Below, one piece after another: positions 42,189-58,849 of a DNA stretch of 64,000 nt. The stretch is from Devosia marina (lineage in GTDB: Bacteria; Pseudomonadota; Alphaproteobacteria; Rhizobiales; Devosiaceae), in the NCBI RefSeq assembly GCF_009758415.1, contig NZ_WQRF01000010.1, forward strand, positions 1 to 64,000, read 5' to 3'. The notes below the pieces were generated by a model. That model was not told the DNA's origin and did no database searches. It saw only the letters and a program-made list of their open reading frames with translations. The translations under genes and the position numbers were made by a program. How positions within the stretch are numbered: the first letter of the stretch is position 1; each line of letters begins with the position of its first letter.

Positions 42189-43802
42189 ATGAACCGAATC
42201 ATCGGCATCCTGATTGCCGGGACACATGCGCGGGGCCGACGGATTGGCCTCTGGCTGGTGGCTTTCGTGGTCCTGATGTTCGGCGCCACCTGGATTGTTG
42301 CCGAGCAGGTCTCGCTCAACATGCGGGTGGAAACGCAACGCAGCCTGACCGGTTATGAGCGGCTGCGGGCCAATGTTCTCTCTACTTTCGATGAGATGGA
42401 TCGTCGCCTGGTTCAACCGGCCTGTTCACCGGCATTCCTTGACGAGCTGCGCCGCATCGCCTTTTTGCCGGACGGCATCAATGAACTGCTCTATGCCCCG
42501 GACGGTCGCGTCGAGTGTTCGGTCAATTCGGGGCGGCTGGACGCGCCCGAGGATTTGGGCGAGCCCGATATCGCCGCTCAATACCCGTTTGGCATGGCGT
42601 TCTGGGTAGACATTGATCTTGGCTTTCTTGGTCTCGATGGCATGGTCGGAATTTTGGCGCAACGCGGCTCGCTGGCCATGATCGTCCCACCTCAACCTTT
42701 GCCGGCAACTGGGCCGCGCTGGATGGAACAGGAACTCATCTTCCGTTTCAGCGACGAGGTCTGGCTGCACCGCCAGGGTGAGGCAGGTCTGTATGCTGAG
42801 GCCCTCAGTGCCACCGGCCCGGCCATTGCTTCGGTGTTCAGGGGCGTTTTCTACGAAACCGCGTGCGACAGCGGCGGCATTCATTGCGTCGCCAGTCGTA
42901 GCGATTTGACCCAACTCTTCGGGCTGGGCTGGGCTACACTCGCCGTCATCCTGCTTGTCACCAGCGTCTTGGCTGCCTGGGTTGCTCAGCAATTGCACCG
43001 CATCATTGAGCGCTACTGGTCGTTCGAGGCACGTTTCCTGCGTCGGCTCGACAAGGGTTCAGTAGTCTGCGCCTATCAGCCTTTGCTCAATTTGAAGAAT
43101 GATTTGGCCACAGGTTGCGAAGTGCTGGCACGCTGGCGCGATATTGACGGGACCATCGTGCCGCCGGACCGGTTCCTGCCCATTATCGAAAGGCACGGCC
43201 TGACCGAACGCTTCACCTCCATGGTGGTCGCCTATGCCTATGCAGACCTGACTGCATACCTGCCCAAGGGCCTGCGCCTGCAGGTCAATTTCAATATTTT
43301 CCCACAGGACCTCGATGCCGGCAAACTGGTTCCGATCTTCGCCCCTTTCCTGACGAAAGACTCTCCATTCGACGTTGTTGTCGAGATTGTCGAAACCGCC
43401 GAAATCAGCCCCGAAACGGCGCAGGTCGAAATCGAGCGGCTGCGCGCTGCTGGCCTCAAGGTCTACATTGACGATTTCGGCGCGGGCTATTCCTCCATGC
43501 AGAATCTGGCCGCCCTCTCCATTGATGGGGTCAAGCTGGATCGATCCTTCGCCATGGCCCCGGACCATTCGGTCATGTCCACGATGCTGGGTTACGCTAT
43601 CGACCTGGTGCAGGCCTCAGGGCGGTCTCTGGTGGTCGAAGGGGTAGAAACCATGGATCGGCTGAACGCTCTAAAGGCGACCGGTATGGTAAACTTCGCT
43701 CAGGGCTATGGCATTTCCCGTCCACTCTTTATCGCGCCCTTTGTGGCCTATCTTGCCGACCATGGTCCGCGTCCGTTGACCCGCCCCCGCCTGGTCGCCT
43801 GA
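42189..43802 (+). CDS. CSS-motif EAL-domain cyclic di-GMP phosphodiesterase
   Basis: A 537-residue inner-membrane protein. Two helices flank a periplasmic CSS-type sensor domain (PACSPAFLDEL and VECSVNSG), whose Cys residues sense redox state in the PdeC-type family. The cytoplasmic EAL domain has EVL in place of EAL (CEVLARWRD). It keeps the catalytic Glu, the EIVETAE block, IDDFGAGYSSMQNLA and VVEGVET. The VNLSP-type strand reads VNFNIFPQ. It is probably active, but two motifs are non-standard. Confidence 0.83.
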   Translation: MNRIIGILIAGTHARGRRIGLWLVAFVVLMFGATWIVAEQVSLNMRVETQRSLTGYERLRANVLSTFDEMDRRLVQPACSPAFLDELRRIAFLPDGINELLYAPDGRVECSVNSGRLDAPEDLGEPDIAAQYPFGMAFWVDIDLGFLGLDGMVGILAQRGSLAMIVPPQPLPATGPRWMEQELIFRFSDEVWLHRQGEAGLYAEALSATGPAIASVFRGVFYETACDSGGIHCVASRSDLTQLFGLGWATLAVILLVTSVLAAWVAQQLHRIIERYWSFEARFLRRLDKGSVVCAYQPLLNLKNDLATGCEVLARWRDIDGTIVPPDRFLPIIERHGLTERFTSMVVAYAYADLTAYLPKGLRLQVNFNIFPQDLDAGKLVPIFAPFLTKDSPFDVVVEIVETAEISPETAQVEIERLRAAGLKVYIDDFGAGYSSMQNLAALSIDGVKLDRSFAMAPDHSVMSTMLGYAIDLVQASGRSLVVEGVETMDRLNALKATGMVNFAQGYGISRPLFIAPFVAYLADHGPRPLTRPRLVA

Positions 43803-43877
43803 TCACATTTCCAGTTTCTGCGAAACCTGCATCAGGGCATCGCGTTCTGCCTCCACACCCCAATCAAGGAGGATGAA

Positions 43878-44267
43878 ATGGCCTATGATGACAACCGCGT
43901 CGACTCAGCTGACGTCAAGGAAACCCACGATCTGATCGCGTCGGACAAGGTCGAAGGCACCAAGGTCTATGACCCCAATGGCGACCATATCGGTTCCATC
44001 GAGCGCATCCTGGTCGAAAAGCGCGGCGGCAAGGTTTCCTACGCCGTTCTCAGCTTTGGCGGTTTCCTGGGTATTGGCCACGACCATTATCCATTGCCCT
44101 GGTCCAAGTTGGATTACGATGAAAATCTTGGTGGCTACCGCGTCGACATCACCAAGGACCAGCTCGAAGGTGCGCCGCGCTACGAGAATGAGGACGACAA
44201 TTTCTGGACGGCCGAGAATGGACGCCGCGTCCATGACTATTATGGCGTGACCCCATACTGGATCTGA
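43878..44267 (+). CDS. PRC-barrel domain protein
   Basis: A 129-residue cytosolic protein. The PRC-barrel core is VEGTKVYDPNGDHIGSIERI followed by YAVLSFGGFLGIGHDHYPLP and the WSKLDYD strand. Related alphaproteobacterial proteins are often stress-induced. A ribosome-binding site (AAGGAGG) precedes the ATG and a strong terminator follows. The function is not known in detail. Confidence 0.88.
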   Translation: MAYDDNRVDSADVKETHDLIASDKVEGTKVYDPNGDHIGSIERILVEKRGGKVSYAVLSFGGFLGIGHDHYPLPWSKLDYDENLGGYRVDITKDQLEGAPRYENEDDNFWTAENGRRVHDYYGVTPYWI

Positions 44268-44337: not shown

Positions 44338-44385
44338 CACGTTCACGAACGTGTGAGTCTGTAACCCCTTTGGTCGCGCAGCGAA
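44338..44385 (+). promoter_or_regulatory. SigF-like promoter and inverted repeat upstream of the bufferin operon
   Basis: GTAACC (44361-44366), 15 bases, then CGAA (44382-44385) resembles the ECF SigF promoter of Caulobacter (GTAACC about 16 bases before CGAA, from memory). Just upstream, CACGTTC-AC-GAACGTG (44338-44353) is a perfect inverted repeat starting inside the T-run end of the preceding terminator. It may bind a regulator. The precursor gene starts 50 bases downstream. Confidence 0.55.
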
Positions 44386-44434
44386 TGTCTTCGTGTCGGA
44401 ACCCCCAAAGGTTCCCCATCAGAGGAGAAACCCC

Positions 44435-44743
44435 ATGAATCGTCTTTCGACCTTCGCCCTTGCCGCCTCGCTGACCGCCGCCCTCGGGGGCACAGCAATT
44501 GCCCAGGACTCCATGGGCGGCGACGCCATGGCTGCCACCGAAAAGTGCTACGGCGTAGCTCTTGCCGGCGCCAATGACTGCGCCGCCGGCCCCGGCACCA
44601 CCTGCGCCGGTACCTCCACCATCGACTACCAGGGCAACGCCTGGAAAGCCGTACCTGCAGGCACCTGCGAAACCATGTCGGTCGAGGGAGATCGCATGGG
44701 TTCGCTCGAGCCGCTCGACCGCGATCTTCCCACGGCAAGCTGA
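44435..44743 (+). CDS. bufA1: DUF2282 bufferin precursor peptide (BufA1-like)
   Basis: A 102-residue secreted precursor. The ATG at 44435 has AGAGGAG upstream, and the signal peptide ends near ALGGTAIAQ. The DUF2282 core contains four Cys (residues 38, 49, 57 and 78) in [25 protein letters not shown] and AGTCETM. In bufferins some of these Cys are converted by the DUF692 enzyme into thiooxazole rings that bind copper. The modifying enzyme, its DUF2063 partner and DoxX follow in order. The assignment is by family and context. Confidence 0.88.
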
Positions 44744-44757
44744 TTGGCGCCAATCAC

Positions 44758-44788
44758 GGGAGGCTCACGAGCCTCCCGCCTTTCTCAA
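44758..44788 (+). terminator. Hairpin between the precursor and enzyme genes (attenuator)
   Basis: GGGAGGCT (44758-44765) pairs perfectly with AGCCTCCC (44770-44777) around CACG, followed by GCCTTTCTC. It lies between the precursor stop and the bufB ribosome-binding site. It could end most transcripts after bufA so that precursor exceeds enzyme, or it could protect the bufA message. Confidence 0.65.
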
Positions 44789-44799
44789 GGGAGGCATCC

Positions 44800-45657
44800 A
44801 TGTTCCACGACCCTCTGCCGGCACGCCCCGGGCTGGGTTTGAAGCCGCAGCATTATGCCCAGATCATCGCCGAGAAGCCCGATCTTGGCTTCTTCGAAGT
44901 GCATGCCGAAAACTATATGGGCGAGGGTGGGCCGCCTCATCGTTATCTCAGCGCGATCTGCGCGGATTATCCGCTCTCGCTGCATGGCGTCGGCCTGTCC
45001 ATAGGCGGCGAAGCGCCGCTTGATCGCGACCACCTCAAGCGCCTGCGCGCCTTGGTCGAGCGCTACCAGCCCGCGTCCTTTTCCGAGCATCTGGCCTGGT
45101 CCAGCCATGACGAAGGCTATCTCAACGATTTGCTGCCCGTGCCTTACACTCCTGAAACGCTGGAGCGCGTCGTCGCCCATGTGGATGAGGTGCAGCAGGC
45201 CCTTGGCCGCCGCATGCTGCTCGAAAACCCCTCGACCTATGTCCTGTTCGAAGAAAGCACTATCGAGGAGGTCGATTTCCTCGCCGCCATCGCCGACCGG
45301 ACCGGTTGCGGCCTGCTGCTCGACGTCAACAATGTCATGGTCTCGGCGGTCAATCACCGGCTCGATCCGGTGGCCTATATCGATCGCTTTCCGGTGCACC
45401 ATGTGGGTGAAATTCACCTTGCTGGTTATGATGAAACCACCGATGACGCCGGCGAACGCCTGCTGATCGATGCGCATGGCAGCCGCGTGCGCCCCGACGT
45501 GTTCGCGCTCTACCGCCACACCATCATCCGCACGGGTGCCCTGCCGACCCTGGTCGAATGGGACAACAACGTACCCGCCTTCGATGTGTTGATGGACGAG
45601 GTTCGTCTGGTGGACGAGGTGCTCGATGGCACGTTGAACCGGAGATTGGCATCATGA
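44800..45657 (+). CDS. bufB: DUF692 multinuclear non-haem iron oxygenase (BufB-like)
   Basis: A 285-residue TIM-barrel enzyme with AAGGGAGG before its ATG. Iron ligands and family blocks are visible in order: [44 protein letters not shown] and DAHGSRV, then VEWDNN. MNIO enzymes modify Cys in ribosomal peptides. BufB acts on DUF2282 precursors such as the one encoded upstream. The stop overlaps the next gene by 4 bases. Confidence 0.92.
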
Positions 45658-46418
45658 CCAGTCAGAGCCAGTTCACCCGGGCATTGACCGATCCCGCTCA
45701 GCCGGTACCGGCGGGACTGGTCTCGCCACGCGGCAGTGTGGATAGCAAACGTTTCGCGGTCTATCGCAACAATGTCCATGTCAGCCTGGTTGGTGCCCTT
45801 GCGGCCCGCTTCCCGGTGACCCGCCAACTGGTCGGGGAAGAGTTCTTTGCCGGCATGGCACGGCTCTATGTTGGGCAGACCAAGCCCAAGGGTCCGGTTC
45901 TACTCCACTATGGCGACAGCTTCCCCGATTTTGTGGCGCAGTTTCCGCCCGCTTCGGGATTGCCCTATCTACCCGATCTGGCCCGGCTCGAGGCGGCCTG
46001 GACCGACGCCTACAATGCGGCCGATGTCGATGTTCTTGTCCCGGCCGATCTGAGCACGATTGGCGGTGATGCGCTGGCCGCGCTCGATCTGACACTGGCG
46101 CCGTCCACGCGCCTGGTGCGCTCTGGCTTTCCGGTCGGCTCGCTTTGGTCTGCCCACCAGACTACGCCGGTCAGCATTCCGGCATTATCGGGCAGCGAAT
46201 GCGTGCTGCTCACGCGGCCAGAGGCCGACATTCGCCTCACCATCATTCCACCCGCCGCCTTTGCATTCCTCAAGGCGATAGGGCAGGGCCTGCCTTTGGG
46301 CCAGGCGTCCGAAGCCGCCCTGACCGATTTTCCTGATTTTGATCCCGGCGCCGCGCTGGTGGGGCTGGCCGGACTGGGCGCCTTTGCGGCCCTGACCAAG
46401 GAGCAAGCTGATGTTTGA
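45654..46418 (+). CDS. bufC: DUF2063 partner protein (BufC-like)
   Basis: A 254-residue protein from an ATG at 45654, overlapping bufB (ATGA). The N-terminal DUF2063 region ([20 protein letters not shown], then [20 protein letters not shown]) is typical. DUF2063 proteins work with MNIO enzymes as precursor-binding partners. Annotations of a DNA-binding domain for this family are probably misleading. The longer upstream open frame inside bufB is not used. Confidence 0.9.
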
Positions 46419-46911
46419 TCGCGCCATTGCCCTCTGGAACCGTCTCGATGCGGGTCTGGGCGCAGTCCCGGCCGCCCTAGCGCTACTGGCCCTGCGCATC
46501 GCACTGGCCATTCCGTTCTGGCGGTCGGGCCTGACGAAATGGGACGGCTTTCTCAATCTCTCGACCGGTGCCCGCTATCTCTTCGAGCAGGAGTTCAAGC
46601 TGCACATTTTCGGGCAGGCCTTCGCCTATCCCGCGCCGCTGACCATGGCGTTCCTGGCCGGTCTGGGCGAGATCATCCTGCCCATCCTGCTGGTGCTGGG
46701 CCTGGGCACGCGCTTCGCCGCTCTCGGCATTCTGGGCATGACTGTCATCATCCAGCTCACCGTGCCTGATGGCCTGATCAATTTCCACCTGCCCTGGTTC
46801 GCCATGGCTCTCGCCTTGGTCGTCTATGGTGGCGGCACGCTTTCGGCCGATCGCCTGCTGGGCGGTTTTTTCGGCCAGCGGGTCAAGGGGTCTGCACGCC
46901 CCGCGCGGTAA
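46411..46911 (+). CDS. DoxX family membrane protein
   Basis: A 166-residue protein with four membrane helices and the DoxX pattern (LALRIALAIPFWRSGLTKWD, later GLGEIILPILLVLGLGTRFA). It overlaps bufC by 8 bases, making it the last gene of the bufferin operon. DoxX proteins are often encoded with bufferin genes; their role there is not settled. Confidence 0.88.
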   Translation: MFDRAIALWNRLDAGLGAVPAALALLALRIALAIPFWRSGLTKWDGFLNLSTGARYLFEQEFKLHIFGQAFAYPAPLTMAFLAGLGEIILPILLVLGLGTRFAALGILGMTVIIQLTVPDGLINFHLPWFAMALALVVYGGGTLSADRLLGGFFGQRVKGSARPAR

Positions 46912-58495: not shown

Positions 58496-58849
58496 ATGGT
58501 CATGACCGGAGGCAGCCCCCATGTGGCCGAAATCAGCGGTGACGCTGACATCAGGCATTCCCAAGATATCACTGACATGCTGCGCAGCGCGCTCGCGGCC
58601 CATGATGTGGTGCTCGTGTCGCTAGACGAAGCGACTTGCGTCGATGTCAGTACCCTGCAAGTGCTGCTCGCAGCTCACAAGCAGGCCAAGAGCCTCGGCA
58701 AGTCGCTAGCCATGGCAGGTCCCGCCAAGGGTCGCCTACGCAAACTCCTGACAGAAAAGGGATTCCTAGACGTGGAGGGCGAGCCGATCTTCGCCGAGGC
58801 TCGCTTCTGGGTTACTCCACTCCAGCAGCCAAGGGACTTGTCGGCATGA
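58496..58849 (+). CDS. STAS domain protein of the chemotaxis cluster
   Basis: About 117 residues from an ATG at 58496 (58502 or 58469 are also possible). The STAS core (VVLVSLDEATCVDVSTLQVL, LLAAHKQAKSLGKSLAMAGP) resembles anti-sigma-antagonist-type domains and keeps the Ser that can be phosphorylated. Such proteins often head alphaproteobacterial che operons. It overlaps cheY by 4 bases. Confidence 0.78.
   Translation: MVMTGGSPHVAEISGDADIRHSQDITDMLRSALAAHDVVLVSLDEATCVDVSTLQVLLAAHKQAKSLGKSLAMAGPAKGRLRKLLTEKGFLDVEGEPIFAEARFWVTPLQQPRDLSA

Follow-up and report, generated by a model that had tools for sequence, protein, structure and literature searches.

In Caulobacter crescentus the sigma factor SigF drives two buf-type operons together with a YedY/MsrP gene, SigF and the buf clusters are induced by copper, and a sigF mutant is copper-sensitive, according to what is reported in PMC3511200 and PMC8224329. 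The operon CC3254-CC3257 (CCNA_03363-03366) of this species has the gene order DUF2282-DUF692-DUF2063-DoxX and carries a SigF site of the form GTAACC-N16-CGAA. Likewise, the ECF16 sigma factor RpoE7 of Sinorhizobium meliloti drives a buf-type operon (SMb20530-20527), whose divergent neighbor is rpoE7-ecfR7; H2O2, Cd and chromate failed to induce rpoE7 or its target, and no msr gene is found among the RpoE7 targets described in PMC6180224. In the BcrS-AbcS/bcrXQP system of Brucella, the ECF16 sigma factor BcrS drives HOCl-induced MsrPQ-type genes beside it from a site of the form (T/C)GTAAC-N17-CGAA, and Msr genes have been noted in other ECF16 regulons; no bufferin operon is described in that paper (PMC8315932). 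The bufferins themselves are characterized as copper chelators in PMC12452194, where the Buf1 core gene set is described and the central Cys residues are reported to be modified to thiooxazole, while the outer Cys pair forms a disulfide. Modification of Cys residues in copper-associated peptides by MNIO enzymes is also known from the oxazolin/HvfABC system and from captophorins, which are 5-thiooxazole peptides (PMC12668002, PMC12452194).

The DNA analyzed here is a stretch of 64,000 nucleotides from Devosia marina (the window), in which, judged by sequence, the region 44435-46911 is a Buf1 bufferin operon of this already published kind (Table 1). Its four adjacent genes follow the order of the Caulobacter operon, with a gap of 56 bases between bufA and bufB and overlaps of 4 bases (bufB/bufC) and 8 bases (bufC/doxX), in agreement with the preliminary description, which had proposed a bufferin-type operon with overlaps of 4-8 bases after bufB and had suggested a search against DUF2282, DUF692 and DUF2063 profiles. 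In this search all three families exceeded the Pfam cut-offs (DUF2282, 86.7 bits; MbnB_TglH_ChrH, 353 bits; DUF2063 (PF09836), 86.7 bits), as did DoxX (63.7 bits), and the bufferin reading is also borne out by the Cys spacing of the precursor, the residues shared with MNIO enzymes and the predicted fold of BufC. Since SigF control and copper induction have been published for Caulobacter, the window operon adds a member to a known kind. The nearest named relative among the BufB loci listed is Devosia ureilytica XJ19-1, with 89% BufB identity. Upstream of the operon (42189-44267) lie genes for a CSS-motif EAL protein and a PRC-barrel protein; within the window-type BufB clade the operon neighborhood also aligns in the six remaining genomes, with most of the EAL gene unaligned in one of them (G063, locus L181).

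Table 1. Features of the Devosia marina bufferin operon (positions in the window)
Feature	Position	Strand	Description
ECF16/SigF-type promoter, GTAACC-N15-CGAA	44361-44385	+	49 bases upstream of the bufA ATG
bufA	44435-44743	+	Buf1 bufferin precursor, 102 aa; DUF2282 (PF10048)
Intercistronic hairpin bufA/bufB	44757-44778	+	perfect 9-bp stem, 4-nt loop
bufB	44800-45657	+	MNIO (DUF692) bufferin maturase, 285 aa; Pfam and NCBIfam
bufC	45654-46418	+	MNIO partner, DUF2063 and probable RRE-like C-terminal domain, 254 aa
doxX	46411-46911	+	DoxX family membrane protein, 166 aa; PF07681

The precursor BufA contains four Cys residues (38, 49, 57 and 78) in a 10-7-20 spacing, and the comparison with other bufferins that had been proposed earlier found this spacing in 99 of 101 BufA sequences taken from related loci, the window's included. 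An N-terminal signal peptide appears to end near AIA-Q, as judged by eye from the sequence; no NCBIfam family matched BufA and phmmer returned no solved structural relative. BufB scored 389 bits against the NCBIfam model MNIO_BufB (cut-off 310) and 246 bits against HvfB (cut-off 360), and because only the first of these scores exceeds its cut-off we place the enzyme in the BufB family; the system thus differs from oxazolin/HvfABC both in its enzyme and in its Buf1/DUF2282 precursor. By eye, BufB shares His, Glu and Asp positions with the solved DUF692 protein 3bww and with MbnB, positions that we take to bind iron. BufC and DoxX remained under the NCBIfam cut-offs for HvfC and HvfX, respectively. 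The AlphaFold model of BufC (pLDDT 86, 8 sequences) resembles TglI (8hi7, 8hci) and NGO1945 (3dee) with Z scores of 13.7-14.3, while phmmer found only weak molybdenum-storage matches among solved structures and a profile search found none. Residues ~144-252 of the model matched RRE chains (TbiB1, lasso B1) at a Z score of ~7, which is in the middling range of the tool, and Foldseek gave an E value of 2.9 for 5v1v. The length of BufC falls within the 250-260 residue class of DUF2063-RRE fusions given in PMC12452194, and the modeled C-terminal domain is probably RRE-like. From family membership we infer that modification, export, copper binding and sensing would apply to the Devosia system as well.

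Downstream of bufA, 49 of 101 loci carry a perfect stem of at least 7 bp; a stretch within bufB served as a control, imperfect because it is coding sequence, and gave such a stem in 4 of these loci. A hairpin at this place may shield the bufA mRNA or lessen read-through, and in this way favor the precursor over the enzymes.

The preliminary description had also pointed to a GTAACC-N15-CGAA promoter resembling the SigF site of Caulobacter. This site is present upstream of bufA, and its placement is conserved in the genus, although it should be regarded as a general ECF16 site rather than as one particular to Caulobacter; the N15 spacer is within the published range, which comprises N16 in Caulobacter and spacers of 16 and 15 bases counted on two S. 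meliloti promoters written as GTAACN-Nx-CGAA (PMC6180224). In the window, GTAACC-N14-17-CGAA was expected 0.12 times and found twice, two matches being reached in 1 of 100 shuffles. The second match (58790-58815, minus strand) was dropped as a promoter and attributed to chance, since it runs antisense within a coding region. Counts alone show no enrichment of the motif, either in the D. marina genome (17 matches versus 66 for the pattern read backward) or, in its GTAAC form, at the Devosia buf loci (21 versus 16). What argues for a real bufA promoter is its position. DUF2282 genes occur in 17 of 75 Devosia genomes at 21 loci, and GTAAC-N16/17-CGAA stands shortly upstream of bufA in 19 of these, with 0.00075 matches expected per 150-bp window under a first-order Markov model. 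The 402,090 strand-bases surrounding the 21 loci contained just two other matches, both in front of ECF sigma genes, one of them a buf-linked sigF (genome G024) and the other a different ECF sigma gene (genome G043). The motif is missing before bufA at the buf locus of genome G001 and at a second buf locus of D. marina itself. Two arrangements in the genus may be mentioned separately. In G043 (L188 3373-4080), a different ECF-sigma-like gene with its own GTAACC-N16-CGAA site lies divergent to the buf operon, and genome G029 (L194 4166-5100) encodes, behind the same promoter, a bufA-doxX pair without bufB and bufC. Since a complete buf locus (L192) is found elsewhere in the G029 genome, modification of the lone bufA product may occur in trans.

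Beyond the genus, the best 80 of at least 586 BufB loci, one of them from Devosia, carried the motif at a distance of up to 400 bases from bufA in 37 cases and lacked it in 43. It was found at 30 of 48 loci with a linked sigF-like gene versus 7 of 32 loci without one, and 18 of the 43 motif-less loci have such a linked gene, a label that was assigned by tblastn at an E value of 1e-5 and may therefore take in other ECF genes. At twelve Rhizobiaceae loci with linked sigF (L079, L083, L084, L090, L094, L103, L109, L112, L114, L121, L122 and L123) the sequence GTAAC-N17/18-CGTA occurs instead of the CGAA form; three of these sites are located at -81 to -89 relative to bufA and nine near -390, so that the latter are possibly not the bufA promoter. 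Five loci from Burkholderiales and Alphaproteobacteria (L073, L085, L074, L096 and L124) contain a conserved gene of ~330 codons between bufB and bufC, of which one scanned copy had no Pfam match.

Neither sigF nor nrsF is encoded in the window, and the earlier supposition that the sigma factor would act from elsewhere is supported by the remainder of the genome, which has NrsF genes on contigs C10 and C25 and its closest SigF homologue on C25. On C25, sigF-nrsF is divergent from genes for an MsrP-like molybdopterin oxidoreductase and a cytochrome b561, with GTAACC-N16-CGAA on both sides. In Caulobacter, by contrast, sigF-nrsF adjoins the buf operon in the published account, while the position of an ECF16 sigma gene beside MsrPQ-type genes is shared with Brucella. 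The MsrP-like protein, whose partner is the cytochrome b561, scored 80 and is thus below the NCBIfam MsrP cut-off of 207. The C25 NrsF has the two conserved Cys residues, Cys129 and Cys179, as reported for the Brucella anti-sigma factor (PMC8315932). At 29 of the first 30 Devosia nrsF loci listed, the same cytochrome gene is divergent from sigF-nrsF, and the thirtieth is without such a gene in the DNA covered. A query with the buf-linked SigF of G024 revealed no buf-type SigF in the D. marina genome, the one genome in which buf-type SigF without nrsF was sought; the best match was the C25 SigF at 39%. The C10 NrsF, however, is of the buf-linked type (48-52% to that type versus 33% to the C25 NrsF) and belongs to the second buf locus (L022 4576-7900; G000:C10:10575-13899), where this nrsF stands without sigF, divergent from the buf genes. 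The bufB of this second locus has an in-frame stop and its promoter is without the exact motif, while intact copies are found in relatives. We infer from these arrangements that the window operon would be transcribed in trans under the control of the C25 SigF.

Five of the 17 GTAACC-N14-17-CGAA sites in the D. marina genome precede bufA, sigF-nrsF, the MsrP-like pair, a TAT-type msrB gene and a cytoplasmic msrB gene. The predicted regulon resembles that of Caulobacter, where the same sigma factor is reported to drive a YedY/MsrP gene, and differs from its published account in that the site also stands before two msrB genes. The other 12 matches were set aside because they fall within reading frames or have no suitable gene behind them; among these, L006 precedes a gene for an ABC solute-binding protein. 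Across the genus, 92 of 149 MsrB places were included in a comparison that treats NrsF-negative genomes as natural deletions (30 first-listed, 60 fetched and 2 from D. marina), the fetched loci having been picked for NrsF-negative genomes, buf genomes and some NrsF-positive genomes without buf. The motif was found within 350 bases upstream of TAT-type MsrB, so labeled from a twin Arg judged by eye, in 22 of 23 examined NrsF-positive genomes versus 0 of 20 NrsF-negative ones (p = 2e-11, kinship ignored). Only G024 departs from this pattern; a single NrsF was found there, adjoining a buf-type SigF. Before cytoplasmic-type MsrB, a label that retains some distant paralogues (48-64% identity) in the counts, the motif was present at 21 of 29 loci of NrsF-positive genomes versus 1 of 20 in NrsF-negative genomes, the latter from G041, a genome 85% complete. 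In many of the cytoplasmic MsrB promoters (L016 and orthologues) the sequence CCTATAT is retained within the SigF spacer and may represent an overlapping promoter or operator. DUF2282 is confined to NrsF-positive genomes (17 of 17, versus NrsF in 37 of the 58 others; p = 0.002, Fisher), although genomes from a single genus do not count as independent data. Genome G012, which has one NrsF match under the curated cut-off, was treated as NrsF-negative in the MsrB comparison and as NrsF-positive in the Fisher test and in the tally of 54 out of 75. In summary, the operon is probably part of a SigF regulon that comprises both methionine-sulfoxide repair and bufferin genes.

The trees bear on the origin of this arrangement. 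Of the 17 buf genomes, 15 have an nrsF-linked SigF of the msr-linked type. The buf-linked type occurs in the other two, next to buf in G024 and away from both buf and msr in G021. In a SigF tree of 74 rows, which included 25 chosen msr loci and from which short rows were dropped (L077), the msr-linked rows formed one clade (25 rows, 100/100). G024, G021 and Pelagibacterium fall in a separate buf-divergent clade (38 rows, 99/96), and a third clade (99/98) consists of buf-linked rows, 10 of them downstream and 1 divergent. In the BufB tree, built from rows of at least 200 residues (L045 and L184 are identical and apparently one locus), Devosia is not a single clade (four changes); its main clade of 15 rows, which includes the window's BufB, grouped with 17 other rows, 14 of them with linked sigF. 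Together with the lone buf-type NrsF, these trees suggest that the Devosia buf operon lost its own SigF and has since come under the msr-linked one.

The full explanation that we favor, with a probability of roughly 0.8, is a Buf1 bufferin operon transcribed in trans by an ECF16 (SigF-type) sigma factor. Envelope stress, by copper and/or oxidation, would inactivate the membrane anti-sigma factor NrsF and thereby free SigF, which would start transcription at the site upstream of bufA and also before sigF-nrsF, the MsrP-like/cytochrome b561 pair and the two msrB genes. BufBC would then oxidize the two central Cys residues of BufA to copper-binding thiooxazoles, the outer pair forming a disulfide, and the peptide would be exported by Sec, so that copper would be buffered in the periplasm while the reductases repair oxidized methionines; DoxX would have an accessory membrane role, and the hairpin after bufA would raise precursor over enzyme. 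Alternatively, a housekeeping promoter or a regulator specific to copper could drive the operon, and the SigF-like site would then be a relic of a lost ancestral buf-linked SigF. That no close buf-type SigF was found in the D. marina genome, that the second locus has a buf-type NrsF but no sigma gene, and that the motif shows no enrichment by count all speak for such a relic. However, a relic should decay, as it has at the second locus, while the site is kept at 19 of 21 loci despite varying spacers and flanks, and the same site tracks the presence of NrsF at msrB across the genus, which makes this explanation quite improbable. Very improbable indeed is an inactive or redundant window operon whose work is done by the other buf locus of the genome, since it is this second copy that has the in-frame bufB stop and no exact promoter, whereas the window operon has four uninterrupted reading frames, has kept its promoter and lies in a neighborhood that aligns in the six other genomes of its clade.

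Because the regulator adjoins MsrP-like/MsrB repair genes, copper and oxidation are equally likely as the signal. The main task of the peptide could concern another metal, or a thiol sink against oxidants within a regulon of methionine-sulfoxide repair. In line with this, the genes that share the motif encode repair enzymes, the operon controlled by the Brucella ECF16 factor BcrS is induced by HOCl (PMC8315932), and Caulobacter SigF is involved in the response to chromium and cadmium (PMC3511200). We nevertheless regard such a non-copper task as rather unlikely, given the copper induction of Caulobacter SigF and its buf clusters, the copper sensitivity of the sigF mutant (PMC8224329) and the copper chelation reported for bufferins (PMC12452194). 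Somewhat more credible, yet still tentative and slightly short of an even chance, is the idea that the bufferin operon of Devosia lost its own neighboring SigF and was taken over by a different ECF16 sigma factor with methionine-sulfoxide repair as its core regulon, so that bufferin production would fall within an envelope-oxidation response, with copper not the primary stimulus.

A buf operon in trans to an msr-linked SigF whose predicted targets include two msrB genes, as in Devosia, was not found in the literature searched, which covered few subscription papers. The arrangement would tie copper-buffering peptides to the repair of oxidized proteins in a genus that encodes the two apart, and Devosia genomes with and without SigF offer a comparative test of what this family of sigma factors senses. 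It may also represent a case in which an operon kept its promoter while its sigma factor was replaced.
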